This document shows, one piece after another, positions 16,793 through 32,221 of a DNA stretch of 64,000 nucleotides. The position numbers were made by a program, and so were the translations under genes. How positions within the stretch are numbered: the stretch's first letter is position 1; every line of letters starts with the position of its first letter. Location: NCBI RefSeq assembly GCF_003970675.1, contig NZ_CP034563.1, positions 1,307,501-1,371,500 on the forward strand, written 5' to 3'. Origin of the DNA: Flammeovirga pectinis (GTDB lineage: Bacteria > Bacteroidota > Bacteroidia > Cytophagales > Flammeovirgaceae). The notes beneath the pieces were generated by a model. The model did no database searches. It saw nothing but the letters and a program-made list of their open reading frames with translations, and had not been told where the DNA came from.

Positions 16793-17701
16793 CTACTTGT
16801 TAAGTAACTCCTTTTTATATTTCATTGGAGTAAACCCTGTTTTACTTTTAAAGTATTTAATAAAATTAGAATCATCTATAAAGCCTAACCTAGACGCTAT
16901 CTGTGAAGAATTTAAATTAGATTGTGCTACTAATGATTTTGCTTCAATCATTATGTAATCATCAAGAATTTGTTTTGCGGTTAAATTTGTCACTGTTTTT
17001 ACGCACTCAGATAAATAGACAGTACTTATCTCTAATTTATCTGCATAAAATTTTATTGGATGAAATTTTTCTGATGTTGATTTAATCAGATTTTCAAACT
17101 TTAAAGTTATCTCCTCTTTCTTAGTTTTTATAGAGTTTACTTCATTTACAAAAACCAATTCTTCTTTCATTTTAAATAGCAATAATGTAAGATAGGCCCT
17201 AATGATTTCGAGATTATCCTTTGTTAGATCTTTGTAATGAAAGATCATTAAATCAAAATAATAAATAAACTTATTGATTTGTCCTCTATCTAATTTATAT
17301 CCCGGAATAGTGAAGTGATTAAAAAATGGAAAGTTCTCAAATACATCAAATATGTTTTTAGTAAATGGCAAAAATTCTGGAGAGAAAAGAACGATGTAAC
17401 TCATATAAGTAGCATCTGATTGCTTTACTTCCCAAGTAGCTTTCTGACCAGAAGAGATAAAATTCAAATTAAAATCAATTGGATTTATTTCATAATCGTC
17501 GATACTAATTTTCGCATCTAAGCCAATACATAAATTAATTTCAAAATAATCATGCTTATAAGACATTGCAGGTACTTCAGAAATATTCACGCCTTCAAAA
17601 CTAGAAATATAGAATAATGGGTTATTGGTATCTTCTAAACCTAATGTTTTAAGAAAATCATTAATGTTACTTGAATTGTATTGCTCTAACTTTGTTTTCA
17701 T
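16793..17701 (-). CDS. AraC-family transcription regulator
   Basis: The protein has 302 residues. The N-terminal 180 form a cupin-like sensing domain. The C-terminal AraC DNA-binding region (about 205-300) contains ISTVYLSECVKTVTNLT and the second HTH SSQIASRLGFIDDSNFIKYF ending in KSKTGFTPMKYK, the classic AraC signature. It is divergent from the amidinotransferase gene at 17915, which makes that gene a possible target. The second amidinotransferase copy at 30128 has no such neighbour. The effector is unknown. Confidence 0.88.
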   Translation of the reverse strand: MKTKLEQYNSSNINDFLKTLGLEDTNNPLFYISSFEGVNISEVPAMSYKHDYFEINLCIGLDAKISIDDYEINPIDFNLNFISSGQKATWEVKQSDATYMSYIVLFSPEFLPFTKNIFDVFENFPFFNHFTIPGYKLDRGQINKFIYYFDLMIFHYKDLTKDNLEIIRAYLTLLLFKMKEELVFVNEVNSIKTKKEEITLKFENLIKSTSEKFHPIKFYADKLEISTVYLSECVKTVTNLTAKQILDDYIMIEAKSLVAQSNLNSSQIASRLGFIDDSNFIKYFKSKTGFTPMKYKKELLNK

Positions 17702-17807: not shown

Positions 17808-18882
17808 TTACATATTGTTCACATTTATATTTTGAAAAAACATGTACTTACAAAATATATTTGCCTGACAACGAAATAAGTTTCAATTTATAACCTATTA
17901 AATAACAACAAGTTATGTCAGTAAAAGAAATAATGGTCAATCACGAATGGGGTGCTTTAAAAGAAGTAATTGTAGGTAGTGCATACTTTTATATTCCTGG
18001 TGAATTTCCTGAATATATGAGACCTTGGTTAAGTGATTTAGCTGTAGAAAGATTTACTAAAACGTGTGGAGGTAGTATTGAAGAAAAACTTCCTGAATTA
18101 TGGAAAGAACAAGTAGATCAGATTCAAACGGCAATTGATCTTTTAGAAGAAAGAGGCATTAAAGTGCATCAATGTGAAAAACCAAATGAAGAAGAACTAA
18201 CATTCTTTGGGGAAGGTGAATTTCTTCGTTTATCGATGTACCCTAGAGATGAGATTGTTGTTATTGGTAATAACTACATAGAAACGAGTTTACAAAACCA
18301 AGGTAGACGTAGTACTAAATGGGCAATTAGACGTACGCTTAATGATCGTCTTGAAAATAGCGATGCACAAATTGTTGCTATGCCAGAACCGTTCCCGTAT
18401 AGTGGTGGATCGTACCTTGAATCTGGTGATGTTTTTCTTTTAGGTAAGGATATACTTGTTGGACATTCTGGTAATGGTAGTAATGCTGCTGGTATTGCTT
18501 GGTTAAAAAGATATTTAGGTGATGAATACAGAATTCATGAAGTTAAACTTTCTAGTAATTTCTTGCACTTAGACTGTGTTTTATGTACACCAAGAGAAGG
18601 GCTGGCTATTATCTGTAAAGAAGCATTTGTTGATGGTATACCTCCGTTATTAGAAGATTGGAAACTAATTGAAGTTTCTGTGGAAGATGCTGAAACAAAA
18701 CAAGCGTGTAATAACCTTGTAATTGATGAAAAAACTATCATGGTTCCTTCTGAATTACCTGAATTAATTAAAGATTTAGAAGATGCTGGACAAGAAGTAA
18801 TTGCTACTCCTTTTAGCTCTATGATATGGCAAGGCGGTTCTTTCCGTTGTTGGCACCACCCTCTTGTAAGAGAGAGTGCTAT
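17808..18882 (+). repeat. Left copy of a long direct repeat (amidinotransferase unit)
   Basis: About 1.07 kb recurs at 30021-31095 in the same orientation, offset by 12,213 bases. It covers about 100 bases of promoter region with several differences, then almost the whole coding sequence, where I count three silent substitutions before the ends diverge. Similarity falls off sharply after the coding sequence. Confidence 0.9.
17831..17863 (+). promoter_or_regulatory. Promoter of amidinotransferase copy 1
   Basis: A minus-33 TTTG at 17831-17834 and a minus-7 TATATTTG at 17856-17863 are separated by 21 bases, matching the Bacteroidota consensus. The 5' leader would be about 45 nt. The same elements are kept in copy 2. 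Confidence 0.7.
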
Positions 18883-18886
18883 ATAA
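17915..18886 (+). CDS. Amidinotransferase-family (GATM/StrB-like) enzyme, copy 1
   Basis: The 323-residue cytoplasmic protein belongs to the guanidine-modifying pentein fold. It opens with the family motif EWGALKEVIVGS (residues 11-22). It has YPRDEIVVIG (109-118), SYLESGDVFLLG (166-177, acidic residues E169 and D172), HLDCVLCTP (catalytic His218) and GGSFRCWHHP (nucleophile Cys312). Members move an amidino group from arginine to an amine, or hydrolyse guanidines. The residues do not decide which; length and motifs favour the amidinotransferase branch over arginine deiminase. It has its own promoter and a strong terminator. It is divergent from an AraC gene and followed by a Tsx-like outer-membrane protein gene. 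A nearly identical copy lies at 30128. Confidence 0.8.
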   Translation: MSVKEIMVNHEWGALKEVIVGSAYFYIPGEFPEYMRPWLSDLAVERFTKTCGGSIEEKLPELWKEQVDQIQTAIDLLEERGIKVHQCEKPNEEELTFFGEGEFLRLSMYPRDEIVVIGNNYIETSLQNQGRRSTKWAIRRTLNDRLENSDAQIVAMPEPFPYSGGSYLESGDVFLLGKDILVGHSGNGSNAAGIAWLKRYLGDEYRIHEVKLSSNFLHLDCVLCTPREGLAIICKEAFVDGIPPLLEDWKLIEVSVEDAETKQACNNLVIDEKTIMVPSELPELIKDLEDAGQEVIATPFSSMIWQGGSFRCWHHPLVRESAI

Positions 18887-18949
18887 AAATACATCAAAAT
18901 TAATTTATACTAGTAATAAATTGATTTTACTAAGTTCTTAATTCTAAGC

Positions 18950-18994
18950 GTGATTACGTCTATATAATATTCTATTGTATATAGACGTAATCAC
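18950..18994 (+). terminator. Strong 17-bp terminator hairpin
   Basis: A perfect 17-bp stem (18950-18966 with 18978-18994) around an 11-nt loop is followed by a short T run. It separates the amidinotransferase from the outer-membrane protein gene and covers the false upstream extension of the latter. Confidence 0.9.
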
Positions 18995-19055
18995 CACTTT
19001 TTACCCTAAGCACTACAACAAAAAAACACTTTCAACTTCAATACAAAAAACAATA

Positions 19056-19907
19056 ATGTATTCAAAAATACTCTCTAAGAAAATATTTTTTTTACTATTT
19101 TCATTTCTAATTTCTATACATCTTTACGCTCAAGATACAGAAATGAATACGCCTGGTAAACTATCAACCACTTTTATAGAATACCAATATGGTTGGAATA
19201 ATACTGACTTTATGAATGGTCAAAATCCAAAAAATGGTGGTATGGGAATGTTTACCTTTGACCATACAACCATTACAAAATGGGGTGGTGTTTATGGATT
19301 TGTCAACTTTTTATTTGCTCCTGATGGTTTTTATGAAGCAGGCTACGAAAATGAAACCTTAGACAAAACATCTGGTCAATATAGATTGTATTCAGAGGTA
19401 TACCCTTGGATTAGTTTAGGAGGCGTTACAGGTAAAGACTTTTCTTTTGGCCCTATTGCAGATGTCTCTTTAGATTTTCAAATAAACATGACAAATGGTA
19501 GTGCCGCAGGTTTAGCTGGTATGGGTTTTACGTTTAAAGGTCCTCTTAAAAAAGATTTCATTAAGCTTTCTACTTATTGGAGAACGGATAATGTTAAAGA
19601 AAATTCTATGCAGATAACAGGTGCTTTTAACATACATGTTTGGGAAAGAATTGGCTTTAGAATTCACGGATTTTTTGATTTAATTCCTCAAGTACAAAAT
19701 AGAGCAGAATTTGGCGGTGCAGACTTAGGTACAGATTTTCTATCACAAGTACGCTTTCTTTTTGATGTAGGAAGAGATAATATCTTTAAAAGTCATACCT
19801 CTAAATTAGAAGTCGGTTGTGGCATTGGTATGCACTTTAATAAAGAATTAGCTAAATATAAAGCGGGTCATTTTGTACCTCAACCTTGTGTTAGATTATC
19901 ATTTTAA
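19056..19907 (+). CDS. Tsx/DUF5020-like outer-membrane protein, copy 1
   Basis: From the ATG at 19056 this protein of about 283 residues has a signal peptide ending at LYAQ. The mature part looks like a small beta-barrel: alternating aromatic strands (TTFIEYQYGWNNTD, GGVYGFVNFLFAPDGFYEAG) and a C-terminal strand ending in Phe (VRLSF). The pattern recalls Tsx-type nucleoside channels and the DUF5020 family; the family call is from memory of sequence style. A paralogue (visibly above two-thirds identical in protein) lies at 31391, again right after an amidinotransferase gene. The repeated pairing suggests the channel handles a compound linked to the enzyme; the substrate is unknown. Confidence 0.65.
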   Translation: MYSKILSKKIFFLLFSFLISIHLYAQDTEMNTPGKLSTTFIEYQYGWNNTDFMNGQNPKNGGMGMFTFDHTTITKWGGVYGFVNFLFAPDGFYEAGYENETLDKTSGQYRLYSEVYPWISLGGVTGKDFSFGPIADVSLDFQINMTNGSAAGLAGMGFTFKGPLKKDFIKLSTYWRTDNVKENSMQITGAFNIHVWERIGFRIHGFFDLIPQVQNRAEFGGADLGTDFLSQVRFLFDVGRDNIFKSHTSKLEVGCGIGMHFNKELAKYKAGHFVPQPCVRLSF

Positions 19908-19958
19908 TAAGGATACTAACAAGTATATTTTTACTGTATAACTAATTTACTAAAAGAA

Positions 19959-20510
19959 ATGGAGTTTAGTGTTAAACATTGGTATCTACCGTTAATTAGT
20001 GGTTTTCTATTTATTGCCTTAGGAATATGGGCTTTTATGAATCCATTATACATTTGGTTATCCTTATCTTACATATTTAGTTTAATTTTTCTAGTTTCTG
20101 GAGCTGCAAAAATCATATCAGCTATTATAAATAGAAATAGTATTCTTGGTTGGGGTTGGACATTAACTGATGGCATTTTCACAACATTGTTTGGTTCTAT
20201 CTTACTTTCAGCACCTTTCCTATCAGTCAGTACTTTACCACTCTATCTTGGCTTTTATGTTACGTTTAAAGGTTTTGATACTGTAGCAAAAGCAATTGAA
20301 TACAAAGATTTTTCTAGCTATTGGAGTTGGATCCTATTTTCTGGAATTATAAGTATAGTTTTTGGTTTTTGTTTACTTGGCAACATTTTATTGGCAGGAA
20401 TGACTGTAGCACTCATCACAAGTTTATCATTAATTAACACTGGACTATCAGAATTTTTTATCGCTCTAAAATTGAAAAAATTGAACATGAAATTCCCTTC
20501 AAAAGGATAA
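19959..20510 (+). CDS. HdeD/DUF308-family membrane protein
   Basis: The 183-residue protein has six hydrophobic helices in three pairs, with the repeated pattern SGFLFIALGIWAFMNPL and DGIFTTLFGSILLSAP typical of HdeD-like proteins. In enterobacteria HdeD is tied to acid resistance; the mechanism is not known. It lies 51 bases after the Tsx-like gene and may be cotranscribed with it. The neighbour of the second Tsx-like copy is different, so the link is local. Confidence 0.8.
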   Translation: MEFSVKHWYLPLISGFLFIALGIWAFMNPLYIWLSLSYIFSLIFLVSGAAKIISAIINRNSILGWGWTLTDGIFTTLFGSILLSAPFLSVSTLPLYLGFYVTFKGFDTVAKAIEYKDFSSYWSWILFSGIISIVFGFCLLGNILLAGMTVALITSLSLINTGLSEFFIALKLKKLNMKFPSKG

Positions 20511-20544
20511 ATTTCCATGAATCATAAACCAAAGACTAGAGGTG

Positions 20545-20680
20545 AAAAATCGCTACTGGTTTAGACAAATTTAAAGTAGAATACGGAAATTTAAAATCAA
20601 AGATTGATTCTTCATTATCTGATGATAAAGAGAATATAAAATAAGGTTTATAAACCTCAAAGAATTACTTAATAATTAAA
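20545..20680 (+). pseudogene. C-terminal fragment of the small charged-protein family (copy A)
   Basis: One frame reads GLDKFKVEYGNLKSKIDSSL and stops at 20642-20644. It matches the C-terminal half of the intact gene at 20688 and continues what is missing from the broken copy at 23239. It has no N-terminal half. Past the stop, the DNA still resembles the intact gene's tail but carries a palindrome AGGTTTATAAACCT (20644-20657), which recurs exactly in copy C at 22625-22638. Confidence 0.75.
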
Positions 20681-20687
20681 ATAAAGA

Positions 20688-21065
20688 ATGGAAAATAATT
20701 CAAAAGAAAAAGAAGCTTTAAAAGCTACGGAAACTACAATAGAGACTCCTAATTGTTCGGAAGGTATTGAAAACTTAAAAGATGAAGTATCTTCTGAGTT
20801 AAATAGTTTTGATGTATTTATATCTGAAATTGATACTAAGGGTTCTAAAGCTCTTCAAGAAATCAAAGAGAGTATCGCTTCTGATTTAAGTAAAATTAAA
20901 GAAGAATATGAAAACGTAAAATGTAAAATTGACGCGTCATTATCTGAAGATAAAGAAAATGTCAAACAAGATTTTCATAAACTAAAAGAATTACTGAATA
21001 AGTTAGACGATAAGTCTAATAATTCTTTTTCTAAGGATAATGAAAAGGATCAAGTAGTTTCTTAA
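20688..21065 (+). CDS. Small charged coiled-coil-like protein, intact family copy B
   Basis: The 125-residue cytoplasmic protein begins MENNSKEKEALKATETTIET. It is rich in Lys, Glu, Asp and Ser with no hydrophobic core segment. Residues 40-115 are strongly helical with heptad-like Leu/Ile spacing (FDVFISEIDTKGSKALQEIK, then DFHKLKELLNKLDDK), which suggests a coiled coil. No family is recognised; the size recalls phasin-like or apolipoprotein-like helical proteins, but that is speculation. Three related fragments lie within 3 kb (20545, 22508, 23239). This is the only copy that looks complete; a terminator follows. Confidence 0.6.
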   Translation: MENNSKEKEALKATETTIETPNCSEGIENLKDEVSSELNSFDVFISEIDTKGSKALQEIKESIASDLSKIKEEYENVKCKIDASLSEDKENVKQDFHKLKELLNKLDDKSNNSFSKDNEKDQVVS

Positions 21066-21176
21066 ATAGAGATCATTGAAAAAGTGACAACTCTATAATC
21101 TACTAACTTGACTATAAAGAATTATATCAAGTACATAATGGCACTTTTGCCAAAAAGTGGGTAAATTTTTAAATAA

Positions 21177-21217
21177 AGAGGCAGTCTCATAATTTATTAG
21201 TTATGGTGACTGCCTCT
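21177..21217 (+). terminator. Terminator after copy B
   Basis: A 10-bp outer stem (21177-21186 with 21208-21217) encloses a 5-bp inner stem (21188-21192 with 21201-21205). A T-rich stretch follows. Confidence 0.75.
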
Positions 21218-21237
21218 ATATTTTTTAAATATATCTC

Positions 21238-21552
21238 GTCCTGAATTAGTGTTACACAAAACGTAACATTATGAATGATCATCAAGAATATCAGTATACT
21301 AAGCGCACACAAAAAGATTACAGCTACTCTTTTAAATTACAAGTTGTAGATGAAGTGGGACGAGGAGAAATAGGAATAACAGCTGCAAGACTTAAATATG
21401 GAATCCAAGGTAATGCTACGGTCCATACTTGGATAAGAAAGTATGGTAATTTAGATTGGGATAATAAATCTGATTTAAAAATGGGAAAGACACCAGAACA
21501 AAAATTATTGGAGCTAGAACAAAAGGTTCTATTATTAGAGAAGCAAAAATAG
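21238..21552 (+). mobile_element. IS3-type insertion sequence remnant (truncated orfA)
   Basis: The frame 21271-21552 encodes 93 residues of an IS3-family orfA: an HTH (YSFKLQVVDEVGRGEIGITA, then VHTWIRKYGNL) and the start of the leucine-zipper region (PEQKLLELEQKVLLLEKQK). It stops early; the +1 frame continues for a few similar residues (NRYLEKTV) before decaying. No orfB with a DDE domain follows. The bases CGTCCTGAATTAGTGTTACA just upstream look like an IS end. It is a dead remnant. Confidence 0.75.
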
Positions 21553-21628
21553 ATATCTTGAAAAGACAGTAAACTTGTTCATGAATTTTCTCTACCCTCT
21601 TTAATAAGTGAATACGTTTTAAAATTAG

Positions 21629-21658
21629 AGGATTAGACTAAATATATAGTCTAATCCT
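21629..21658 (+). terminator. Hairpin, 12-bp perfect stem
   Basis: Bases 21629-21640 pair with 21647-21658 around a 6-nt loop, downstream of the IS3 remnant. The stretch 21659-21836 holds nothing else I can support. Confidence 0.7.
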
Positions 21659-21836
21659 TTCTCTATAAAAAAGAAAAAATTGATTTAACATAATTCTCGG
21701 GAGTGTAATCTGAACGCTGTCTCGATTTGATTCACAGTTTATTTTTCTCAGTTCATAATTAAGTCATAATTTCAATCTAATTCATAGCGATATAGATTTA
21801 GTATATATGGAAATGGGAACCTAAGGAGTAGTTTGT

Positions 21837-22394
21837 TTAGAATTCGTAAACTACAGCAATAGTAGTTTGATTAGCAGAATTTACAGCTTTGTTATTATGA
21901 TTTAAGAAAATCTCCATATCTGAGGTGTCTCTACGAAGTTCAGGAATTACTCTTAAAGGTCCTAGATTAATATTACCTGATAATGTGAATGCATTAATTG
22001 TATTATAATCAGATATTCTAAAATTATTTGAACTAGCTGCTTTTTCTTTCTTTTTTTAAAAAAAAAAACGAAGTCCTAAAGAGAAAATGTTTAAGGTGCC
22101 TTAATTATTTGTCCAACTTTTTATTGCAAATCCAGACTGAGATAAAATTACATTAGCCATACCTATTGCAATAGAATTTTGTGTTTCAGTAAAATACGTT
22201 TTTATATTAGGTATATCTTGTCCTGAAAAATTATAGTTATAATATAAATCAACTGAACCTGAAATAGAAAGTTTATTGGATTCCTTTTTTAATTCTTTCT
22301 GCTCATTAATAGTTACTTCCGTACCCTCTTGTGCAAATGCTATAGAAACTGTAATTAATAAAAAGGTATTTAATGAGAATATTTTAAATTTCAT
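21837..22394 (-). pseudogene. Internally deleted outer-membrane porin (beta-barrel porin-2-like)
   Basis: The frame at 22394-22101 encodes a signal peptide (ending AFAQ) and the first strands of a barrel (LSISGSVDLYYNYNF, then NSIAIGMANVILSQSGF), then stops. Further along, in another frame, 22020 to 21837 encodes a barrel C-terminus: NTINAFTLSGNINLGPLRVI, PELRRDTSD and a final AVVYEF. Poly-A/T tracts lie between at about 22040-22075. Head and tail fit one porin that has lost its middle, about 250 or more residues if full-length members are around 400. Confidence 0.7.
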
Positions 22395-22507
22395 ATTAAT
22401 TTATTCAAACTGTTGTTATTAGATTTTGAAAGTTTGGGTCTTTAATTAAGTCATATATAATAAATAAGCTGTGATAACCCTTTCCTTAATAGGTCATCAC
22501 AGCGATA

Positions 22508-22668
22508 TCCTCTTTGATTTATTGAAGAGCTTTAGAACCCTTAGTATCAATTTCAGATATAAATACATCAAAATTATTTAACTCAGAAAATACTTCATCG
22601 TTTAACTTGTTAAGTGATTCTTTTAGGTTTATAAACCTTATTTGATATTTTCTTTATCTTCAGGTATT
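22508..22668 (-). pseudogene. Degenerate copy C of the small charged-protein family
   Basis: On the minus strand the piece starts with a gene tail (GAAGATAAAGAAAATATC, then an in-frame TAA), passes the palindrome AGGTTTATAAACCT, and runs directly into mid-gene sequence (FDVFISEIDTKGSKALQ followed by TAA). The N-terminal coding part is deleted and at least two in-frame stops are present. It is adjacent to the IS200-type element and probably holds the far half of copy D. Confidence 0.7.
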
Positions 22669-22675
22669 GAAGACT

Positions 22676-23250
22676 AAACCACTCTGCACTGAAAGTGCAG
22701 AGGTTTGGGGGTAGGACTGAAAGTCCTACGCTCACTTCCTCTTATTCCAACATGAAGTTGGAATTATCGTCCATATCGCTCCTATGATGTTCTAAATAGT
22801 CGTTGACCATTTCGTCTGTAATGTTACCTGTACTCCAAGCGCCGTAACCTCCTGCCCAAAAATGCTTACCCCAATACCTTTTTCCTAAACTAGGATATTC
22901 TTGTTGAAGTAACCTTGAAGTTCGACCTTTCATACGTTTCAAAATATCACTAAGACTTTTAGTCGGAGGGTACTCTATATGGATATGAACATGATCTTTA
23001 CTTACAACTCCTTTTAGGATCTCAATACCTTCTGCTTCACAAATTTGAATGAGAAGAGATCTACATCGTTTTTGAATATCTCCTTCTAGAACTTGATAAC
23101 GATATTTAGTCGCAAAAACTATATGGACGGTCAACCTAGTCACTGTATGATGACCTTTTCTATACTCATGTGTCATAATACTCAGAATGTAGTAGATTTT
23201 TTCGAAATACTAAAGTTCTGCACTGAAAGTGCAGGGTTTTAAACCCATTT
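22676..23250 (-). mobile_element. IS200/IS605-family element
   Basis: A single tnpA gene is flanked by hairpins sharing the core CACTGAAAGTG: 22682-22702 (8-bp stem) on one side and 23218-23234 (6-bp stem) on the other. A further hairpin with the same TGAAA loop is at 22711-22729. Subterminal hairpins rather than terminal inverted repeats are typical of this family. Exact ends are approximate. The element splits a copy of the small charged-protein gene. Confidence 0.85.
22742..23176 (-). CDS. tnpA: IS200/IS605 transposase TnpA (Y1 HUH)
   Basis: The 144-residue protein has the HUH metal site HVHIHIEYPP (about residues 63-72), the family's basic KRMKGRTSRLLQQEYP stretch (about 83-98) and the catalytic tyrosine helix in ITDEMVNDYLEHH (about 119-131, the Tyr in NDYLEHH). 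It cuts and rejoins single-stranded DNA at the element's hairpin ends. Length and motifs are complete, so it may be active. No tnpB (IscB/TnpB nuclease) accompanies it. Confidence 0.92.
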   Translation of the reverse strand: MTHEYRKGHHTVTRLTVHIVFATKYRYQVLEGDIQKRCRSLLIQICEAEGIEILKGVVSKDHVHIHIEYPPTKSLSDILKRMKGRTSRLLQQEYPSLGKRYWGKHFWAGGYGAWSTGNITDEMVNDYLEHHRSDMDDNSNFMLE

Positions 23251-23502
23251 ATGAGACCAATAAATGTTTGATTTTAAATTTCCGTATTCTACTTTAAATT
23301 TAATTAAACCAGAAGCGATACCCTCTTTGATTTCTTTAAGAGTTTTAGAACCCTTAGTATCAATTTCAGATATAAATACATCAAATTTATTTAGCTCAGT
23401 AGGTACTTCATCTTTTGAGTTTTCAATACCTTCCGAACATTTAGGAGTTCCTGTTTGAGATTCAACTTTTAAAGCTTCTTTTTCTTTTGAGTTATTTTCC
23501 AT
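23239..23502 (-). pseudogene. Copy D of the small charged-protein family, cut by the IS200-type element
   Basis: Residues 1-76 are close to the intact copy B (both begin MENNSKEKEAL; FDVFISEIDTKGSK is shared). After GNLKSN the frame runs into element DNA and ends with foreign residues (IYWSHKWV). The missing C-terminal half appears beyond the element in copy C. Upstream, 23528-23548 resembles the tail of another copy (AGTGATTCTTTTAGGTTTA), so the unit was once in tandem. Confidence 0.75.
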
Positions 23503-23626
23503 AATTTATTTAAATTATCATGTAACTTATTAGTGATTCTTTTAGGTTTAAATGCTCTAATAACAAATAATCAAAGAGCATACTTTTTAATACACCTTAA
23601 ATTTTATAGTTCAACTTTATAACCTA

Positions 23627-25030
23627 TTACATTTTACCTCCACCAACAGATTCAAAAATATATGTTGTTGATTGTAATTTCTGAGACATCGATTCAATAT
23701 GCATTAACTGAATAGTAAGTAGGTTCTCTTGAGCATTTAAGATATCTAGATAATTTGCAAAACCACCAATTAATAAATAATGAGCATCATCTAATGATTT
23801 CTTTAATAAATCTTCTTGATTTTTTAATGCTAAATTATTTTTAGTTAATGTTTTATAGTCATTGAGGTAATTACTAACTTCAATACTAGCTTCTAAAACT
23901 TTCTGTTGAAAACTATAAAGTTTAATCTCTTGATCTAGTTTTTTTAATTCTTTCTCGGTTTTTAATTTTCTCCCATTCAAAAGAGGCTGTGTAAGTCCTC
24001 CTGTGAAATTATAGAAGAAAGAATTTGCAGAAAATAAATCTCCAGCATTGAGACTATTCAAACCTATATTTGCAGATAATACTAAACTTGGGTATAAACT
24101 CGCTTTTGCAACATTATATTCTTCAAAAGCTATTTTAAAGTCTAATTCTGCTTCTTTCACATCTGGTCTATTACTAATAGCGGCTAAAGGTATACCTACA
24201 TTTAATGAAGCCGGTATTACCTGACTTTCTAGAGAAGTCCTTTTTAAATTAATACTTTTATTACCAATTAAAATTATTAAAGCATTCTCTAAATTGAATA
24301 TTTTATTTTCAATATTTGTCAATAATATATTAACATTTTCCAATTGAGCTTTTGCTTGACTTACTGCTAAAGTATTACTTCTACCTGCCTCTTTTAAACT
24401 TATAATAGCAGATAAACTTCTCTCTCTAACATCTAGCGTTTTTAATAATAACTCCTTACTTTGTTCGGCCTCAAGTAATTGATAATATGTCCTAGCTAGA
24501 TTAGCAATCAACTGAACTTGAATAGTTTTTTGGGCTGTTATTGATTTTTCAAATTGTGCAAAACTCGTTAACTTTTTACTCTTAATTTTCCCCCAAATAT
24601 CAGCCTCCCAACCTATTGAACTTTCTAAAGTAAAATCATTATATGATGTAGTTGGTGAAAAACTACCTTGAAAAGAATTATTAGAGACATTATTTCTCAT
24701 ATAATTAGCATTAACTCCTATTGTGGGAAGATAAGACATCTTCCCTTTTTTCATTGTAGCTCTGAATTTTTCTATATTCTTAAAAGCAACCTTATTGTTA
24801 ATATTGTAAATTAATGCAGTGTCAATATAGTTTTTCAAAATTGAATCACTAAAGAATTCACCCCAACTAATTTCTCCAATATTTTCACCAGTAGAACAAA
24901 GGCTATCTAATCTAAATAAAGATAAATTTTCAGTACTTGGAGCTATGTATTTCTTTGTGGCTAAACAGCCTATTAAATTAATTAATATAAGAAATAATGA
25001 AATTTTCTTAAGATATAATATTTTTTTCAT
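23627..25030 (-). CDS. RND efflux outer-membrane factor (TolC/OprM/CusC-like lipoprotein)
   Basis: The 467-residue protein has a lipoprotein signal (LIGCLATKK, lipidated Cys about residue 22). Two OEP repeats follow (about 60-250 and 265-455), with long coiled-coil helices such as TIQVQLIANLARTYYQLLEA and LAISNRPDVKEAELDFKIA, the latter carrying the NRPDV signature of the NodT/OprM group. It forms the outer-membrane channel of the pump encoded just upstream (13 bases apart). It is last in the leftward operon of adaptor, pump and channel. Confidence 0.9.
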   Translation of the reverse strand: MKKILYLKKISLFLILINLIGCLATKKYIAPSTENLSLFRLDSLCSTGENIGEISWGEFFSDSILKNYIDTALIYNINNKVAFKNIEKFRATMKKGKMSYLPTIGVNANYMRNNVSNNSFQGSFSPTTSYNDFTLESSIGWEADIWGKIKSKKLTSFAQFEKSITAQKTIQVQLIANLARTYYQLLEAEQSKELLLKTLDVRERSLSAIISLKEAGRSNTLAVSQAKAQLENVNILLTNIENKIFNLENALIILIGNKSINLKRTSLESQVIPASLNVGIPLAAISNRPDVKEAELDFKIAFEEYNVAKASLYPSLVLSANIGLNSLNAGDLFSANSFFYNFTGGLTQPLLNGRKLKTEKELKKLDQEIKLYSFQQKVLEASIEVSNYLNDYKTLTKNNLALKNQEDLLKKSLDDAHYLLIGGFANYLDILNAQENLLTIQLMHIESMSQKLQSTTYIFESVGGGKM

Positions 25031-25043
25031 GTCGGAAATATTT

Positions 25044-28000
25044 TTAATTTTTTATTTTCTCATCTAGTTTTTGGAAAATTATGTACAATACTGGAATCGC
25101 TAATACCCCGAATAAAGTACCAATAAGTAATCCTCCTGCAGCTCCAGTTCCAATAGATCTACTTCCTGCGGCACCAACACCGTTTGAGAAGACTAATGGA
25201 AGAAGCCCTAAAATAAAAGCAAAAGATGTCATTAAAATCGGTCTTAATCTATCAAGAGCTCCTTCTAAAGCAGCTTGTTGTATTGATAAACCATTTTCTC
25301 TTTTTTGCTTAGAAAATTCAACAATTAATATAGCATTCTTGGCTAATAGACCTATTAACATTACCAATGCTATTTGGAAATAAATATTATTATCTAGCCC
25401 AAAAGCAAACGATGAAAAATAAGCACCAGCAATTCCTATTGGTAAAGAAAGAATTATAACGAATGGTAACAGTAAGCTTTCATATTGTGCAGCCAATAAT
25501 AAAAACACAAATAAAATACTTATTGATAGAATAATAGGTGCCTGACCAGAACTCTCAATCTCTTCCCTAGTTAATCCACTAAATTCAATTTTATAATTTC
25601 CACCCAATTTCTTAGCTTCTTGTTTAATTGCTTCAATTGTTTGACCAGAACTGAAACCTGGATTAATAGAACCATTTATAGTAACTGAATTATAAAGGTT
25701 AAATCTATTTAATGATTGAGCTCCATTTATGTATTTTAAAGAAATGAAGTTTTTAATTGGAGCCATCTGACCTTTATTATTCTTCACAAAAATTGAAGAT
25801 AAATCATTTTTGTTTTTTCTAAATTCTGGTGAGGACTGAATATAAACTTTATATGGTTTACCAAATTTATTAAAATCAGTTACATAAAGACTACCAACGT
25901 AACCTTGTAAAACATCTAATATTGATGAAACTTCAAGATCAAACCTTTTTGCTTTCGCAAAATCAACGTCAATTTCATATTGAGGAAAGTTAGTATTTAA
26001 TGAATTAGAGGCGAAACCAATTTCATTTCTGTTATTTAAATTTTCAACAAAAGCTGTAGCTTCTTTATTTAAATTTGATAATTTACCTGATTTTTTATCA
26101 ATAAAACGAACTTCAAAACCACCTGTATCACCATAGCCAGGAATACTTGCTGGCTGGAAGAATATTATATTAGCATCTTTAATTTCAGATACTCGTGAAA
26201 ATAATTTTTGAATTATTGCATCAGAACTTGATCCTGGATCTTTTCTTTCCTCTAGGTTTTTAAGTAAAATAAAACCTTGTGCATTACTACTAGCTGCTCC
26301 AGAAAAGAAGTTAGTCCCAACAGAATAATTAAAATCCACAATTTCGTCAAAATCTCTTGTAATGTCATTTAACTGTTCTAATACTGCTAATGTTCTTCCT
26401 AAAGAAGCTCCCGCAGGCAACTCTATATTAGACATTATGACACTTCTATCTTCTGAAGGTACAAAACCTTGTGGCGTTACTTTATTAAGCCAAAGAATGC
26501 TAATAACTGATATGATTAATCCTACAATTGTAATCCATTTGAATTTAAATAATTTTTTTAAAATTGATAAATATTGATTTTTCAATAATTCAAATGCTGT
26601 GTTAAATGAATCATAAAACCTTTGTAATTTAGTTTTCTTAATATCATTTAAATTATTTTGATGAGGCTTTAAAAATAGAGCACATAATGCAGGAGATAAT
26701 GTTAAAGCATTAATAGCAGAAATTAGAATAGCTGTAGCTAGTGTTATACCAAATTGCTTATAAAACATTCCTGAAGGACCATTCAAAAATGTTACAGGAA
26801 CGAAAACTGCACCCATAATAAGTGTAATAGAAATAAGCGATCCTGTTATTTCTCTCATTGCAGTTTTTGAAGCTTCTAACGCATTGTCAATACCACTTTC
26901 TAGTTTAGCATGAATCGCTTCCACGACTACAATTGCATCATCTACAACAATCCCAATTCCTAAAATTAATGCAAAAAGTGTCAAAAGGTTCATAGAGAAA
27001 CCTATGATATTAAGTATAAAGAATGTTCCAATAATTGAAACAGGAACAGCGATCGCAGGAATTAAAGTTGATCTAAAATCTTGTAAAAAAATAAAAACAA
27101 CTAAAAATACCAGTATAAATGCTTCCACTAAAGTATGAGATACTTTATCAATTGATGCTACTAGGAAATCATTTGTATTATAGACAATTGAATATTTTAT
27201 TCCATTTGGAAAACTTAATTTTAAATTTTCTAAACTATTTATTAAAGCTTCATTAATTTTTTGAGCATTAGTATTTGGTAATTGAAACACACCAAATGTA
27301 ACTGCACTTTTTCCATTTTCTTGAGATGCTAATGAATAAGATAAGGCTCCTAATTCAACTTTAGCAACATCTTTTAAATAAATATTATTCCCTTTTTTAT
27401 CAACAAAAACAATAACATTTTCATATTGCCTTTCATCTTTAAATCGACCTTTATACCTCAAAACATATTCAAACGATTGACCTGTGTTTTGCCCTAATGA
27501 TCCCGGAGCTGCTTCTCTACTTTGTTCTGTAACGGCTCTTCTAATATCTTCGGGAATTAAACCATAAATAGCCATTTTCGAAGGGTTTAACCAGATTCTC
27601 ATAGTGTAACTCTTACTACCATAGACATCTATCTTACTTACCCCACTAATACGTTTTAATTCTGGAATTACATTTATATTAGCGTAATTTTGAAGAAAGG
27701 TTTCATCATAATCATCAGAAGTTGCAACAATAGACAAATACATCAATGCTGAGTTTTGTGTTTTTTGTGTTGTAACACCATATCTAATAACTTCTTGAGG
27801 CAATATTGCATTTGCTCTAGAAGCTCTGTTTTGGACATTTACTGCTGCAATATCTGGATCGATACCTTGATTAAATATTACTGTTATTTTTGCTGAACCA
27901 TCACTATTGGCAGTAGAAGTCATGTATTTCATTCCTTCTACACCATTGATTTGTTCTTCGATAGGTGCTATAACACTTTCAATAATTGTTTGTGCATTTG

Positions 28001-28154
28001 CTCCTGGATAACTTGTCGTTATTTCTACTGTCGGTGGTGCAATTTCAGGATATTGTGAAACTGGAATCGTTTTTAAACCTATAACACCTAAGATTACAGT
28101 GATAACTGAAATAACACCCGATAATATAGGCCTACTAATAAATTTTTGTAACAT
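25044..28154 (-). CDS. RND (HAE1-type) efflux pump, inner-membrane subunit
   Basis: The 1036-residue length matches AcrB/MexB. It starts MLQKFISRPILSGVISVITV (first membrane helix), has a large periplasmic loop, the proton-relay motif GIVVDDAIVVVEA in TM4 (two adjacent Asp), and a second-half repeat with GLLAKNAILIVEFSKQ. It exports amphipathic compounds using proton entry. The gene overlaps no neighbour (7 and 13 bases either side) and forms an operon with the adaptor and channel genes. No regulator gene is adjacent. The substrate is unknown. Confidence 0.95.
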   Translation of the reverse strand: MLQKFISRPILSGVISVITVILGVIGLKTIPVSQYPEIAPPTVEITTSYPGANAQTIIESVIAPIEEQINGVEGMKYMTSTANSDGSAKITVIFNQGIDPDIAAVNVQNRASRANAILPQEVIRYGVTTQKTQNSALMYLSIVATSDDYDETFLQNYANINVIPELKRISGVSKIDVYGSKSYTMRIWLNPSKMAIYGLIPEDIRRAVTEQSREAAPGSLGQNTGQSFEYVLRYKGRFKDERQYENVIVFVDKKGNNIYLKDVAKVELGALSYSLASQENGKSAVTFGVFQLPNTNAQKINEALINSLENLKLSFPNGIKYSIVYNTNDFLVASIDKVSHTLVEAFILVFLVVFIFLQDFRSTLIPAIAVPVSIIGTFFILNIIGFSMNLLTLFALILGIGIVVDDAIVVVEAIHAKLESGIDNALEASKTAMREITGSLISITLIMGAVFVPVTFLNGPSGMFYKQFGITLATAILISAINALTLSPALCALFLKPHQNNLNDIKKTKLQRFYDSFNTAFELLKNQYLSILKKLFKFKWITIVGLIISVISILWLNKVTPQGFVPSEDRSVIMSNIELPAGASLGRTLAVLEQLNDITRDFDEIVDFNYSVGTNFFSGAASSNAQGFILLKNLEERKDPGSSSDAIIQKLFSRVSEIKDANIIFFQPASIPGYGDTGGFEVRFIDKKSGKLSNLNKEATAFVENLNNRNEIGFASNSLNTNFPQYEIDVDFAKAKRFDLEVSSILDVLQGYVGSLYVTDFNKFGKPYKVYIQSSPEFRKNKNDLSSIFVKNNKGQMAPIKNFISLKYINGAQSLNRFNLYNSVTINGSINPGFSSGQTIEAIKQEAKKLGGNYKIEFSGLTREEIESSGQAPIILSISILFVFLLLAAQYESLLLPFVIILSLPIGIAGAYFSSFAFGLDNNIYFQIALVMLIGLLAKNAILIVEFSKQKRENGLSIQQAALEGALDRLRPILMTSFAFILGLLPLVFSNGVGAAGSRSIGTGAAGGLLIGTLFGVLAIPVLYIIFQKLDEKIKN

Positions 28155-28161
28155 TATATTA

Positions 28162-29355
28162 TTATTTAAATACTGTATTAAAAGATAGGATAATGTTGCT
28201 CATATCAACATAGTTAGGTTTAATTACCATATTCGGACGTACTTTATTTACCCCTTCGGCAAGAATTATTTCACCACTATTTAAACCTTCCCCTATAATG
28301 TATTGTCTTTCTACTTGATCTAATACCTCGACTGATTTTGCAATTAAAATATTATCTTTTGATAAAACATATACGCATTTCTGTCCTTGTAAATCAAAAG
28401 TTGAAGACATTGGTATGGTAATAACATTAGAATAATAAACTGGTATTCTAATTTTCCCACTACTCCCACTTAATAAACTATACTCAGAATTATCAAATAA
28501 TGCTCTCAATTGAATAGCTCCAGTTTTTGATTCAATTTTTCCTGACGTAGCGTTTAATGCTCCCTGTTTATTATAAATTTCACCATTAGAAGCCTCAAAA
28601 TAGACTTTTGGTAAAAAATTAATCTTATCATCTAAAGTATTCCCATTCAGCCCCTTTATTAAATCATAAAGATTATCTTCATTCATTGAAAAATAAGCAT
28701 GAATATTTTTTGTGTCTGAAATAGTTGACAACGGGTTTGCATCATTTGGACTAACTAATGCTCCTACTTTTAAGTTAAGTCTACCTATAAATCCACTTGT
28801 TGGACTTTTAATATAAGTATAATCTTTATTAACAACTATACTTTTATACGTACTTTTTGCTTGATTTAATTGTGCTTTTAGAGATGCTAAATTAGCTTTA
28901 GCAGTTCTCAATTCAACATTGCTAATAATATCTCTTTCAACCAAAGGTTCTAATTTTTCAATTTCAATTTCTGCTTGATTTACTTTTGCTTCAGCTGTTT
29001 TTATTGCTGCTTCTGCAGCAAAAGCATCTTGTTCTAAAGTATTAGCTTCAATTTTAAATAATAATTGGTTCTTTTTTACATAATCACCTTCGTCAATAAA
29101 AACTTTAGAAATATACCCTGATATTTTAGATCTGATTTCAACCTCTTCAGTTCCTTGAATTTGTGTAGGGTAACTTACATAACTACTAATATTAGTAGTT
29201 GTAGTCTTAAAAACAGGGTATGTTTCAATATGATCCTCTCTATCAACTTTATTATCCGAACATGACGGGAGATAAAATAAAATAATTAGAAAGAAGAAGA
29301 ATATAAAAAGTTGATTAACTTTTCTCTTTAATGATGACATTTCTAAATTAAACAT
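28162..29355 (-). CDS. RND efflux periplasmic adaptor (membrane fusion protein)
   Basis: The 397-residue lipoprotein has a basic N-terminus, a Phe-rich hydrophobic stretch and a lipobox ending LPSC (Cys about 32). The biotinyl-lipoyl half-motifs (VEIRSKISGYISKVFIDEGD, about 68-87, and SPTSGFIGRLNLKVGALV, about 184-201) flank a coiled-coil hairpin (about 105-170). A beta-barrel and membrane-proximal domain follow. It bridges the pump and the outer-membrane channel. An ATG five codons in (29340) is an equally possible start. A good promoter lies about 110 bases upstream. Confidence 0.9.
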   Translation of the reverse strand: MFNLEMSSLKRKVNQLFIFFFFLIILFYLPSCSDNKVDREDHIETYPVFKTTTTNISSYVSYPTQIQGTEEVEIRSKISGYISKVFIDEGDYVKKNQLLFKIEANTLEQDAFAAEAAIKTAEAKVNQAEIEIEKLEPLVERDIISNVELRTAKANLASLKAQLNQAKSTYKSIVVNKDYTYIKSPTSGFIGRLNLKVGALVSPNDANPLSTISDTKNIHAYFSMNEDNLYDLIKGLNGNTLDDKINFLPKVYFEASNGEIYNKQGALNATSGKIESKTGAIQLRALFDNSEYSLLSGSSGKIRIPVYYSNVITIPMSSTFDLQGQKCVYVLSKDNILIAKSVEVLDQVERQYIIGEGLNSGEIILAEGVNKVRPNMVIKPNYVDMSNIILSFNTVFK

Positions 29356-29463
29356 GAATAAGTGCTATTTTAAATTTTATGAATTGAGTGTTATTTTAAT
29401 ATTCAGTTAAAAAAATCACTAGAAATCTATTTTTTTCATCGAAATAACTTTTACTGAACTGAG

Positions 29464-29495
29464 CAAACTTATATTTTTAAAAAACTCTTTTCAAA
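29464..29495 (-). promoter_or_regulatory. Promoter of the RND efflux operon
   Basis: On the minus strand, TTTG (29495-29492) and TAAGTTTG (29471-29464) are separated by 20 bases, a full match to the Bacteroidota promoter layout. The leader would be about 100 nt. Confidence 0.65.
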
Positions 29496-30020
29496 CACTA
29501 TAAGTGAACAAACATTAATTTTACATCAAAAAAATATAAATTAGGTATATTTAAACTATAAAAATGGTGTATTTCTATGTTATTATTTTAATACTTGGAT
29601 TTGTTAACACTTTTCGATCTTAATGGGTCAGTAGTAAAAACTAGACTTATCTTGCCTAAGAAGCATGGAGGTTTTATACATGAAAAAATTTTAATTAGCT
29701 ACATCTCTTTGTTTTTGTGATTTAGTCTATTTAATAGGTTGATTATAAAATGTAGTCTTCATTCGATTTAAAATTATCCTTACAGTATTGAGGAGTCTAT
29801 ATATAACATCTTTTATAGAAAAAAATATGCAACCATTTAATTATTGAATTTTATCTAAAAACTTGAATTCTAATAAAAATTGTAACCTTAAGCTCTATAG
29901 ATTTTAATATTCATTAGTTTCACTTTCCAAAGAAAATGAAGTGTAGAAATAAACAAATACATAGAAATTCACCATTTTAGCATTAATTTTAAACCATATT
30001 TAATTTTATTTCATGTTTAA
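29496..30020. other. Gene-free stretch between the efflux operon and amidinotransferase copy 2
   Basis: About 525 AT-rich bases have stop codons in all frames and no ORF I can support. No strong hairpin or repeat was seen. It ends where similarity to the left amidinotransferase unit begins. Confidence 0.5.
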
Positions 30021-31095
30021 TTACATTCTATTCACATTTATATTTTGAAAAAACATGTACTTACCCAATATATTTGTCCCATAACGAAATAAGTTTCAAT
30101 TTATAACACATTAAATAACAACAAGTTATGTCAGTAAAAGAAATAATGGTCAATCACGAATGGGGTGCTTTAAAAGAAGTAATTGTAGGTAGTGCATACT
30201 TTTATATTCCTGGTGAATTTCCTGAATATATGAGACCTTGGTTAAGTGATTTAGCTGTAGAAAGATTTACTAAAACGTGTGGAGGTAGTATTGAAGAAAA
30301 ACTTCCTGAATTATGGAAAGAACAAGTAGATCAGATTCAAACGGCAATTGATCTTTTAGAAGAAAGAGGCATTAAAGTGCATCAATGTGAAAAACCAAAT
30401 GAAGAAGAACTAACATTCTTTGGGGAAGGTGAATTTCTTCGTTTATCGATGTACCCTAGAGATGAGATTGTTGTTATTGGTAATAACTACATAGAAACGA
30501 GTTTACAAAACCAAGGTAGACGTAGTACTAAATGGGCAATTAGACGTACGCTTAATGATCGTCTTGAAAATAGCGATGCTCAAATTGTTGCTATGCCAGA
30601 ACCCTTCCCGTATAGTGGTGGATCGTACCTTGAATCTGGTGATGTTTTTCTTTTAGGTAAGGATATACTTGTTGGACATTCTGGTAATGGTAGTAATGCT
30701 GCTGGTATTGCTTGGTTAAAAAGATATTTAGGTGATGAATACAGAATTCATGAAGTTAAACTTTCTAGTAATTTCTTGCACTTAGACTGTGTTTTATGTA
30801 CACCAAGAGAAGGACTGGCTATTATCTGTAAAGAAGCATTTGTTGATGGTATACCTCCGTTATTAGAAGATTGGAAACTAATTGAAGTTTCTGTGGAAGA
30901 TGCTGAAACAAAACAAGCGTGTAATAACCTTGTAATTGATGAAAAAACTATCATGGTTCCTTCTGAATTACCTGAATTAATTAAAGATTTAGAAGATGCT
31001 GGACAAGAAGTAATTGCTACTCCTTTTAGCTCTATGATATGGCAAGGCGGTTCTTTCCGTTGTTGGCACCACCCTCTTGTAAGAGAGAGCGCTAC
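30021..31095 (+). repeat. Right copy of the long direct repeat (amidinotransferase unit)
   Basis: This is the partner of 17808-18882, in the same orientation. The promoter region has scattered differences, the coding sequence is nearly identical, and the end diverges at the last few codons. Confidence 0.9.
30044..30076 (+). promoter_or_regulatory. Promoter of amidinotransferase copy 2
   Basis: TTTG at 30044-30047 and TATATTTG at 30069-30076 have the same spacing as in copy 1. The bases between and just after differ slightly between copies. Confidence 0.7.
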
Positions 31096-31105
31096 TTTAG
31101 CTTAA
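30128..31105 (+). CDS. Amidinotransferase-family (GATM/StrB-like) enzyme, copy 2
   Basis: This 325-residue protein is identical to copy 1 (17915) over residues 1-322 and differs only at the end (ESATLA against ESAI). The catalytic set is the same: E169/D172, His218 and Cys312. At DNA level I count only three silent changes before the ends part, while flanking genes have diverged much more, which points to recent duplication or gene conversion. It has its own promoter and terminator, and a Tsx-like gene follows at 31391. No regulator gene is adjacent, unlike copy 1. Confidence 0.8.
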   Translation: MSVKEIMVNHEWGALKEVIVGSAYFYIPGEFPEYMRPWLSDLAVERFTKTCGGSIEEKLPELWKEQVDQIQTAIDLLEERGIKVHQCEKPNEEELTFFGEGEFLRLSMYPRDEIVVIGNNYIETSLQNQGRRSTKWAIRRTLNDRLENSDAQIVAMPEPFPYSGGSYLESGDVFLLGKDILVGHSGNGSNAAGIAWLKRYLGDEYRIHEVKLSSNFLHLDCVLCTPREGLAIICKEAFVDGIPPLLEDWKLIEVSVEDAETKQACNNLVIDEKTIMVPSELPELIKDLEDAGQEVIATPFSSMIWQGGSFRCWHHPLVRESATLA

Positions 31106-31117
31106 TTTATGCATTTA

Positions 31118-31152
31118 GTGGTTGCATCTTTTTATTAAATTGATGTAACCAC
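31118..31152 (+). terminator. Terminator of amidinotransferase copy 2
   Basis: An 11-bp stem (31118-31128 with 31142-31152, one G-T wobble) starts 13 bases after the stop. Its sequence differs from the terminator of copy 1. Confidence 0.7.
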
Positions 31153-31390
31153 ATTTAAAAATTATTTAATAACTGCGCAAGTGTGATTCATAATATAGAA
31201 ATCATTTCGATATCTATATAATTATTAACAGTGATGATACTTATATATGAAATACATATATCTTATAGAAAATAACACTGTATTGTTCTTATCTCTTTAA
31301 ATAAAGAAAACCTACATCACTTTCTCTAAAATCAAGTGGTCTTTTCTACTTGAAATTTCTAGTAGGGATTCATATAATTTTAATAATATC

Positions 31391-32221
31391 ATGTTTTTAA
31401 GAAACCTTTCTATTTTTATCATTGTGATTGCTGGCTTTTTTATGCCTAAAAGTTCATATGCTCAAGAGAGAAAATCAACCACCTTTCTAGAATATGTATA
31501 TGGCTGGAATAACACCGATTATTATTGCGGACAAAATCCTAAAAATGGAGGTATGGGAATGTTTACATTAGACCATACTACAATTACTAAATGGGGTGGT
31601 GTTTATGGTTTTGTTAACTTTTTATTTGCTCCAGATGGTTTTTATGAAGCAGGTTATAGTAACGAAAAATTAGATAAAACATCTGGGAAATATAGATTGT
31701 ATTCAGAGGTGTATCCTTGGGTAAGTTTATCAGGTGTAACAGGTAGAGATTTCTCTTTCGGACCTGTTGCAGATGTATCTTTAGATGCACAAATAAACCT
31801 TACTAATGGAAGTGCTGCTGGTTTAGTAGGCGTAGGCTTTACTTTTAAAGCACCTCTAAAAAAAGATTTCTTAAAAGTATCTGCCTATTGGAGGAAGGAT
31901 AATATCAAAGAAAATTCTATGCAAATTACAGCTGCTTTTAACTTACATGTTTGGCCAAAAGCTGGATTTAGAATTCAAGGATTTGTTGACTTAATTCCTC
32001 AAGTAAAAAATAGAGCAGAATTTGGTGGTGCAGATTTAGGAACGGATTTCTTATCTCAAGTACGCTTCTTGTTTGATGTTGGCAGAAATAGCATTTTCAA
32101 AAACGATTCATTTTCTAAATTAGAAATTGGATGTGGTATTGGTATGCACTTCAATAAAGATTTAAAGAAACATAAAGCAAGCTCTTTTGTACCTCAACCT
32201 TGTATTAGGTTGTCATTTTAA
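31391..32221 (+). CDS. Tsx/DUF5020-like outer-membrane protein, copy 2
   Basis: This 276-residue protein has a signal peptide ending SYAQ (about residue 25). The mature barrel-like part is collinear with the protein at 19056; shared blocks include GGMGMFT, DHTTITKWGGVYGFVNFLF and AEFGGADLGTDFLSQVRFLF. It ends in the same CxRLSF strand. Differences are spread along the length, unlike the nearly identical enzyme genes before each copy. It is probably an outer-membrane channel of unknown substrate. A terminator follows. Confidence 0.65.
   Translation: MFLRNLSIFIIVIAGFFMPKSSYAQERKSTTFLEYVYGWNNTDYYCGQNPKNGGMGMFTLDHTTITKWGGVYGFVNFLFAPDGFYEAGYSNEKLDKTSGKYRLYSEVYPWVSLSGVTGRDFSFGPVADVSLDAQINLTNGSAAGLVGVGFTFKAPLKKDFLKVSAYWRKDNIKENSMQITAAFNLHVWPKAGFRIQGFVDLIPQVKNRAEFGGADLGTDFLSQVRFLFDVGRNSIFKNDSFSKLEIGCGIGMHFNKDLKKHKASSFVPQPCIRLSF

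Follow-up and report, generated by a model that had tools for sequence, protein, structure and literature searches.

Two copies of an enzyme-channel gene pair in Flammeovirga: near-identical predicted guanidino-modifying enzymes beside diverged Tsx-like channels

In order to characterize a duplicated gene pair in Flammeovirga we examined a 64,000-nucleotide stretch of contig NZ_CP034563.1 (the window, whose coordinates are used throughout). Each pair consists of a gene for an enzyme with a predicted guanidino-modifying fold, followed by a gene for a predicted Tsx-like outer-membrane channel. Both pairs are encoded on the + strand in identical order, as an earlier note on this DNA had described, and are separated by about 12.2 kilobases (kb). 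The genus was inferred from named records of near relatives. In the genus comparison the genome of the nearest species, referred to here as G006, holds one such cassette (locus L037). The features of the window locus, with ORF standing for open reading frame, are as follows.

16793..17701, - strand: AraC-type regulator, divergent from enzyme a (PF12833 match; 86.8% identical neighbour at the G006 locus L037)
17832..17863, + strand: candidate promoter of Bacteroidota type for enzyme a, TTG-N21-TATATTTG (script scan for a consensus)
17915..18886, + strand: enzyme a, guanidino-modifying fold, 323 residues, without apparent leader peptide (ORF list and Pfam; the structure model is that of the near-identical enzyme b)
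18950..18994, + strand: strong hairpin separating enzyme a from channel a, then CACTTTTTACC (RNA fold)
19056..19907, + strand: channel a, predicted Tsx-like barrel of the outer membrane, N-terminus signal-like (ORF, sequence comparison)
19908..30127, no single strand: stretch between the copies, with a DUF308 gene, an unknown ORF, an IS200/IS605 transposase, RND efflux genes (- strand) and the leader of enzyme b
30045..30076, + strand: candidate promoter of enzyme b, motif as in copy a (script scan)
30128..31105, + strand: enzyme b, 325 residues (ORF, predicted structure model)
31118..31152 (about), + strand: hairpin 3' of enzyme b, unrelated to the hairpin of copy a (RNA fold)
31391..32221, + strand: channel b, predicted Tsx-like barrel of the outer membrane, 95% identity with the cassette channel of G006 (ORF, Pfam, model)

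The enzyme ORF covers 323 of the 326 residues of its open frame and carries no export leader. For channel a, the ATG at 19056 lies directly 5' of the signal-like sequence and is probably the start codon; the ORF list gives a longer, TTG-started ORF from 18975.

The two enzyme genes are near-identical, as the earlier note had reported, although its count of three silent differences has to be raised. There are four silent changes (18367, 18391, 18601 and 18877), after which the last residues differ (..SAI in enzyme a, ..SATLA in enzyme b). Exact runs of more than 100 bases shared by the copies extend over 17897-18366, 18392-18600 and 18602-18876. They start 18 bases 5' of the start codon and stop at 18876, so that near-identity is confined almost exactly to the ORF. 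On its 5' side an older similarity between the copies fades yet is still recognizable, while the 3' side is unrelated up to the channel genes. The same note had called the terminators unrelated and the channels clearly diverged, and both descriptions hold: the two hairpins differ, and the channel proteins are 77-78% identical.

Synonymous divergence (dS) separates the two genes of the pair clearly. It is 0.025 between enzymes a and b and 0.27-0.28 between either enzyme and that of G006, whereas for the channels it reaches 0.86 (a versus b), 0.61 (b versus G006) and 1.02 (a versus G006). Five flanking orthologues of the window genome and G006 give uneven values of 0.34-0.97, and the enzyme a-b value lies far below all five. 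In the channel tree the three cassette channels are united in a single clade (100/100), and channel a branches outside channel b and the G006 channel (support 93/94). The single G006 locus consists, in order, of the AraC regulator that neighbours copy a, one enzyme gene, a b-type intergenic stretch and a b-type channel. When leader columns beyond -130 are compared with the AraC coding part excluded, 43 of 84 match between a and b, 49 of 79 between a and G006, and 42 of 79 between b and G006; the copy b leader is thus about equally far from both others, and the G006 leader is only slightly closer to a. The divergence of the channels seems older than the split from G006, and the enzyme ORF was therefore probably homogenized afterwards by gene conversion. 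The simplest account, on modest evidence, starts from an old duplication, after which the enzyme ORF would have been converted in the window lineage and one copy would have been lost from G006 by recombination inside the enzyme gene.

The earlier note had assigned the enzyme to the amidinotransferase fold, and Pfam, profile and structure comparisons agree with it. The catalytic Cys, His and acidic residues shared across this superfamily are confirmed in PMC8826395 and PMC6447857. The model of enzyme b (pLDDT 88) gives HsvA, SxtG, AGAT and StrB1 as its first matches in the Protein Data Bank (PDB). The structure ranking agrees with the profile ranking in placing amidinotransferases nearest: HsvA (E 3e-40), SxtG (5e-32) and StrB1 (4e-23) align along almost the full length of the profile and AGAT (5e-32) in several stretches, and DDAH and arginine deiminase (ADI) give partial matches only, at about 1e-7. 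A Pfam match to the ADI family (PF02274 and kin) lies above its cut-off over residues 106-223 (28.7 bits versus 22.8). The NCBIfam scores for arginine deiminase (TIGR01078, 15.8 bits versus a cut-off of 489.1), arginine dihydrolase (33.9 versus 450) and dimethylargininase (34.3 versus 340) all fall short. The agmatine deiminase family is absent from the enzyme's Pfam and NCBIfam matches, which come from general scans and not from a comparison aimed at that family. An ordinary ADI is unlikely, the score being far under the cut-off and the genome having a separate ADI-like gene (L001); since both proteins share the deiminase-type Glu, an arginine or agmatine deiminase is still conceivable.

The signature residues listed in the earlier note (Glu169, Asp172, His218 and Cys312) are as described, and Asp112 and Asp220 belong with them. 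We aligned 66 rows of the enzyme's clade, some of them near-identical to each other. All 66 rows have Glu169 and His218, and all 65 rows that are not gapped at that place have Arg311-Cys312. Asp172 occurs in 65 of 66 rows. Asp112 occurs in 61 of 65, and the remaining four are cyanobacterial. In these four relatives (L065, L066, L071 and L072) Gly replaces the guanidine-binding Asp (PRG for PRD), and a nitrilase-type carbon-nitrogen hydrolase is encoded nearby. All four annotated amidinotransferases, in contrast, have Asp at the place of Glu169 and His-Cys at the place of Arg-Cys, and Asp occupies the former place in the HsvA, SxtG and AGAT alignments as well. Where an amidinotransferase would be recognized by this Asp and by His before the catalytic Cys, the window enzyme has Glu169 and Arg311. 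The LExGD, RD and HxD motifs of the enzyme align with the genome's own ADI-like protein, which has Glu at the place of residue 169; its Cys region lies outside the stretch compared, so that the likeness to a deiminase refers to these motifs and the Glu. Across the superfamily Glu at this place is generally a mark of hydrolases and Asp of transferases.

The closest relatives outside the genus, both at 73% identity, come from a contig of Nitrospirales and from a gammaproteobacterial fragment. In the enzyme tree, built without the rows WINa, L070, L095 and L100, the Nitrospirales relative and the window enzyme group together (100/100); long branches meet in this tree, and several of its deep forks are unsettled. 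About 0.9 kb downstream of the gammaproteobacterial enzyme gene (L070, 1522-2895) lies a 457-residue ORF that by eye resembles a NodT-type outer-membrane efflux protein. Besides the window's own genome, a single genome among 395 drawn from the phylum matches at E 1e-20 or better. Plasmid records with a match number 48, all below 60% identity; six were examined among the matches listed: the neighbours were inspected for the first two, the signature residues for the other four. The annotations of two plasmid-borne members examined read only "hypothetical protein" and "arginine deiminase family protein". The enzyme gene is patchy in its distribution and may have travelled horizontally.

In order to compare genomic neighborhoods we grouped 59 loci (57 named loci and two plasmids, some with short flanks) by identity and taxonomy, in a division of our own. 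Group A holds 20 loci at 40-73% identity, group B 22 from Pseudomonadota at 35-39%, group C 12 from Bacteroidota (five of them Flammeovirga) and group D five from Actinomycetota. The query genes were chosen after the neighborhoods had been seen. A hydantoinase/carbamoylase-type gene is encoded within 4.5 kb in 12 of the 22 group B loci (170 kb scanned; two of the 12 are query sources), and none was found farther out (107 kb). One representative each from L085 and L083 scores above the cut-offs of TIGR01879 and of an allantoate amidohydrolase subfamily. In searches with genes of L085 and L091, where each count includes the locus that supplied the query, creatininase is found at three loci, 8-oxoguanine deaminase at two, a PnrA/Bmp-type binding protein at three and an arginase-family match at seven, three of them adjacent. 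The first three kinds of gene stand beside carbamoylase-type genes in a Roseobacter bin, Roseovarius and Aquibium. For the PnrA/Bmp-type ABC transporter NCBIfam comes nearest, with scores under its cut-offs, to putative vitamin B6 systems, and at other group B loci the enzyme lies beside amino-acid-type ABC genes. In group A, a carbon-nitrogen hydrolase is present at four of 20 loci and a CBAH-type hydrolase at two of 20; at the two 73% loci none of the tested neighbour genes was found. Export leaders are common among relatives, with a Tat-type pattern at seven of 20 group A loci by script and two more by eye, and a hydrophobic leader at all 12 group C loci. At four of the latter (L098, L101, L103 and L107) the adjoining genes encode secreted-looking proteins that resemble one another and have no assigned function.

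The presence of Glu in every clade row, together with the carbamoylase-type neighbours of group B, leads us to propose tentatively that the window enzyme is a deiminase-like hydrolase. The group B context would fit hydrolysis of a guanidino to a ureido compound followed by removal of the carbamoyl group; the window enzyme shares the Glu and not the context. For the window genome a pathway by way of creatinine or carbamoylase was rejected, since there is no creatininase (PF02633) match and carbamoylase (TIGR01879) and AguB score only below cut-off. AguB is above cut-off in G006, the other cassette carrier.

The earlier description of the channel as Tsx/DUF5020-like can be kept in part. The model of channel b, of moderate quality (pLDDT 72, pTM 0.68), finds E. 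coli Tsx (1tlw) as its first PDB match (E 3.2e-6, TM 0.54/0.60). In Pfam, channel b reaches 22.1 bits against the 27.2 gathering cut-off of Channel_Tsx (PF03502), channel a, scanned as the longer 310-residue ORF, has no match, and neither channel matches DUF5020. Across nine genus genomes we found channel matches at 16 places, counting the pieces of a broken gene once; three are the cassette copies. At all 13 others an NCS2-type permease gene lies no more than about 110 bases away from the match; a DUF6150-type gene is also nearby at seven of the 13, and PF00860 matches the three permeases that were scanned. These neighbours tie the channel family to nucleobase-type transport and bear out that much of the earlier hint at a guanidino or nucleoside-like substrate. 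The nearest class of genus channels is 62-71% identical to the cassette channels and a second class 36-39%. The cassette channels are an offshoot of the genus Tsx-like channel, apparently borrowed from the genome's own purine-type uptake genes. The family is rare outside the genus, with 13 further low-scoring genomes among the 395. The window genome's own NCS2-linked channel (L012, G000:C2:1027015-1027814) is broken, with matches in two frames with stops; in G006 the channel is open in a matching setting, and a sequencing error at L012 is possible. Loss of this channel might have raised the importance of the cassette channels.

The earlier note had presented enzyme and channel as a possible two-gene system. 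As a general system the pairing does not hold up: the adjacency occurs in two of nine genus genomes, and it was found at none of 57 named loci that encode a relative of the enzyme (five of these loci are from Flammeovirga itself), as judged with a genus-built channel profile that a divergent channel could escape. That the two families are not neighbours in other genomes is what the note itself had named as refuting, and outside this lineage it is what we find. The pairing looks like a local invention. The promoter-like motif lies 5' of both enzymes and is also visible in the G006 leader; it matches 20 times over both strands of the window and is weak evidence alone. The script scan found no Bacteroidota-type motif before either channel. 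A sigma-70-like match (31350-31378) lies just 5' of channel b, from a scan that gave 76 matches in total against a shuffle mean of 79. The intervening hairpins make co-transcription of enzyme and channel genes uncertain. An Rfam scan of 14000-36000 returned only two sub-threshold matches, neither inside a leader, and a guanidine riboswitch or other known RNA there was rejected. A literature search found no paper that joins an amidinotransferase with DUF5020, Tsx or Flammeovirga, and none on creatine deiminase.

The genes of the stretch between the copies are absent from the G006 cassette locus. An IS200/IS605-type transposase (22742-23176) is flanked by 113-nucleotide direct repeats (22501-22613 and 23314-23426, 88% alike), and RND efflux genes (23627-29355; NodT-type outer-membrane protein, permease and adaptor) are divergent from enzyme b. 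The RND permease and the DUF308 protein have no close counterpart in the eight other genus genomes (best 57% and 64%). Since the permease lacks such a counterpart, a role of the cassette shared with the RND efflux genes was rejected and the permease is treated as a passenger. Beside the G006 cassette (L037, 11415-12413) lies a haloalkane-dehalogenase-like gene, below NCBIfam cut-offs, which has no match among the window ORFs.

Our best explanation, held tentatively and at a little under even confidence, is a lineage-specific Flammeovirga cassette of a guanidino enzyme and a duplicated genus channel. The gene of a cytoplasmic guanidino-modifying enzyme, from a patchy clade, would have settled 5' of a duplicate of the Tsx-like channel gene that the genus already had, and the pair would have been duplicated before the split from G006. 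The channels would then have diverged; gene conversion, as the simplest mechanism, would recently have restored the identity of the enzyme ORFs; and recombination between enzyme genes would have removed one copy from G006. So far the account draws on the fold prediction, signature residues, neighborhoods, dS contrasts and G006 flanks. Going beyond these, we infer that the channel may admit a small nucleobase-like or guanidino compound and that Cys312 would attack the guanidino carbon, with His218 as acid/base and Asp112 and Asp220 holding the guanidinium. Water would release a ureido product and ammonia in a deiminase-type reaction, without amidino transfer to an amine; an inner-membrane transporter and the later product steps would lie outside the cassette. 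Several observations weigh against this explanation. Overall sequence and structure are closer to amidinotransferases than to any deiminase, the tie of Glu to hydrolases comes from general background, and the carbamoylase link is confined to the 35-39% relatives and is not seen in the 40-73% group around the window enzyme. The window genome offers neither the creatininase nor an above-threshold carbamoylase or AguB, and a shared transcript or shared substrate of enzyme and channel is without support in the sequence. Moreover, the channel a-b dS lies inside the range of the flanking orthologues, and, with the coding part of AraC left aside, the leader gives a deletion in G006 little support.

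Closeness to the amidinotransferases is what would be expected if the enzyme were a true amidinotransferase, passing the amidino group of arginine to an amine (polyamine, lysine or a natural-product amine), with the channel handling the product or unrelated. The profile and structure rankings argue for this, but the invariant Glu169 and Arg-Cys of the clade, and the carbamoylase, creatininase and arginase-family neighbours of group B relatives, argue the other way; relatives with export leaders would, in addition, meet little arginine donor outside the cytoplasm. We consider true transfer somewhat unlikely. Enzyme and channel could also be chance neighbours whose adjacency arose once without joint function, the conversion reflecting no more than two long near-identical repeats. 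The narrow distribution of the adjacency, the intervening hairpins, the NCS2-type partners of the channel's kin and the sigma-70-like match before channel b are all consistent with chance; however, the pair is kept in two species, its order is kept in both copies, channel b is under strong purifying selection (dN, the nonsynonymous divergence, is 0.022 from G006 at the dS given above), and neither channel has a Bacteroidota-type promoter motif of its own. On balance chance adjacency is unlikely. If instead the copies arose after the G006 split by gain of the stretch between them, the single state of G006 would be ancestral. That would agree with the lack of close counterparts of the RND permease and DUF308 protein and with the channel a-b dS, but channel a branches outside channel b and G006, if only with support 93/94, and the b leader is as far from a as from G006; such a late origin we judge rather unlikely. 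A more specific proposal, and a quite improbable one, is that the clade is an unrecognized guanidino-deiminase branch on an amidinotransferase scaffold, which degrades guanidino ring compounds and here has a second-hand purine-type channel. Its substrate could be derived from creatinine or guanine, for example guanidinohydantoin converted to ureidohydantoin. This proposal rests on the creatininase, 8-oxoguanine-deaminase-type and PnrA/Bmp-type neighbours and the NCS2-linked channel kin, and the vitamin B6-like names and the amino-acid-type ABC genes at other group B loci count against it.

Members of the clade, which come from several bacterial phyla, have a sequence like that of amidinotransferases and carry the Glu of the deiminase type. 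The reaction of one member would define the clade's chemistry and help to tell transfer from hydrolysis residues in the superfamily. The locus also illustrates clearly how, after a gene pair has been duplicated, one of its genes can remain constant and the gene next to it diverge.

Compared with known systems, the enzyme is nearest by profile and fold to HsvA (5wpi), SxtG (6u1r), AGAT (1jdw) and StrB1 (1bwd), and the places of the catalytic Cys, His and Asp align; it differs from them in Glu169 for Asp, in Arg-Cys for His-Cys and in being a shorter protein. With arginine deiminase and DDAH it shares the Pfam match and the three aligned motifs, but its scores of at most 34 bits stand against NCBIfam cut-offs of at least 300, and the matches are partial. 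The 2-nitroimidazole nitrohydrolase NnhA (9azg) belongs to the same superfamily and, according to PMC11659421, shows this fold acting on a ring compound; the sequence match to it is limited to profile positions 247-318 (E 5.6e-6). The predicted barrel of the channel, from a model of moderate confidence, has the Tsx nucleoside channel (PF03502, 1tlw) as its first structural match, at about 10% identity in the structural alignment and with Pfam matches below cut-off or lacking. The channel is closest to the Tsx-like channels that the genus encodes beside NCS2-type permeases, where the partner is a permease, in some cases with the DUF6150-type gene, and in the cassette it is an enzyme.

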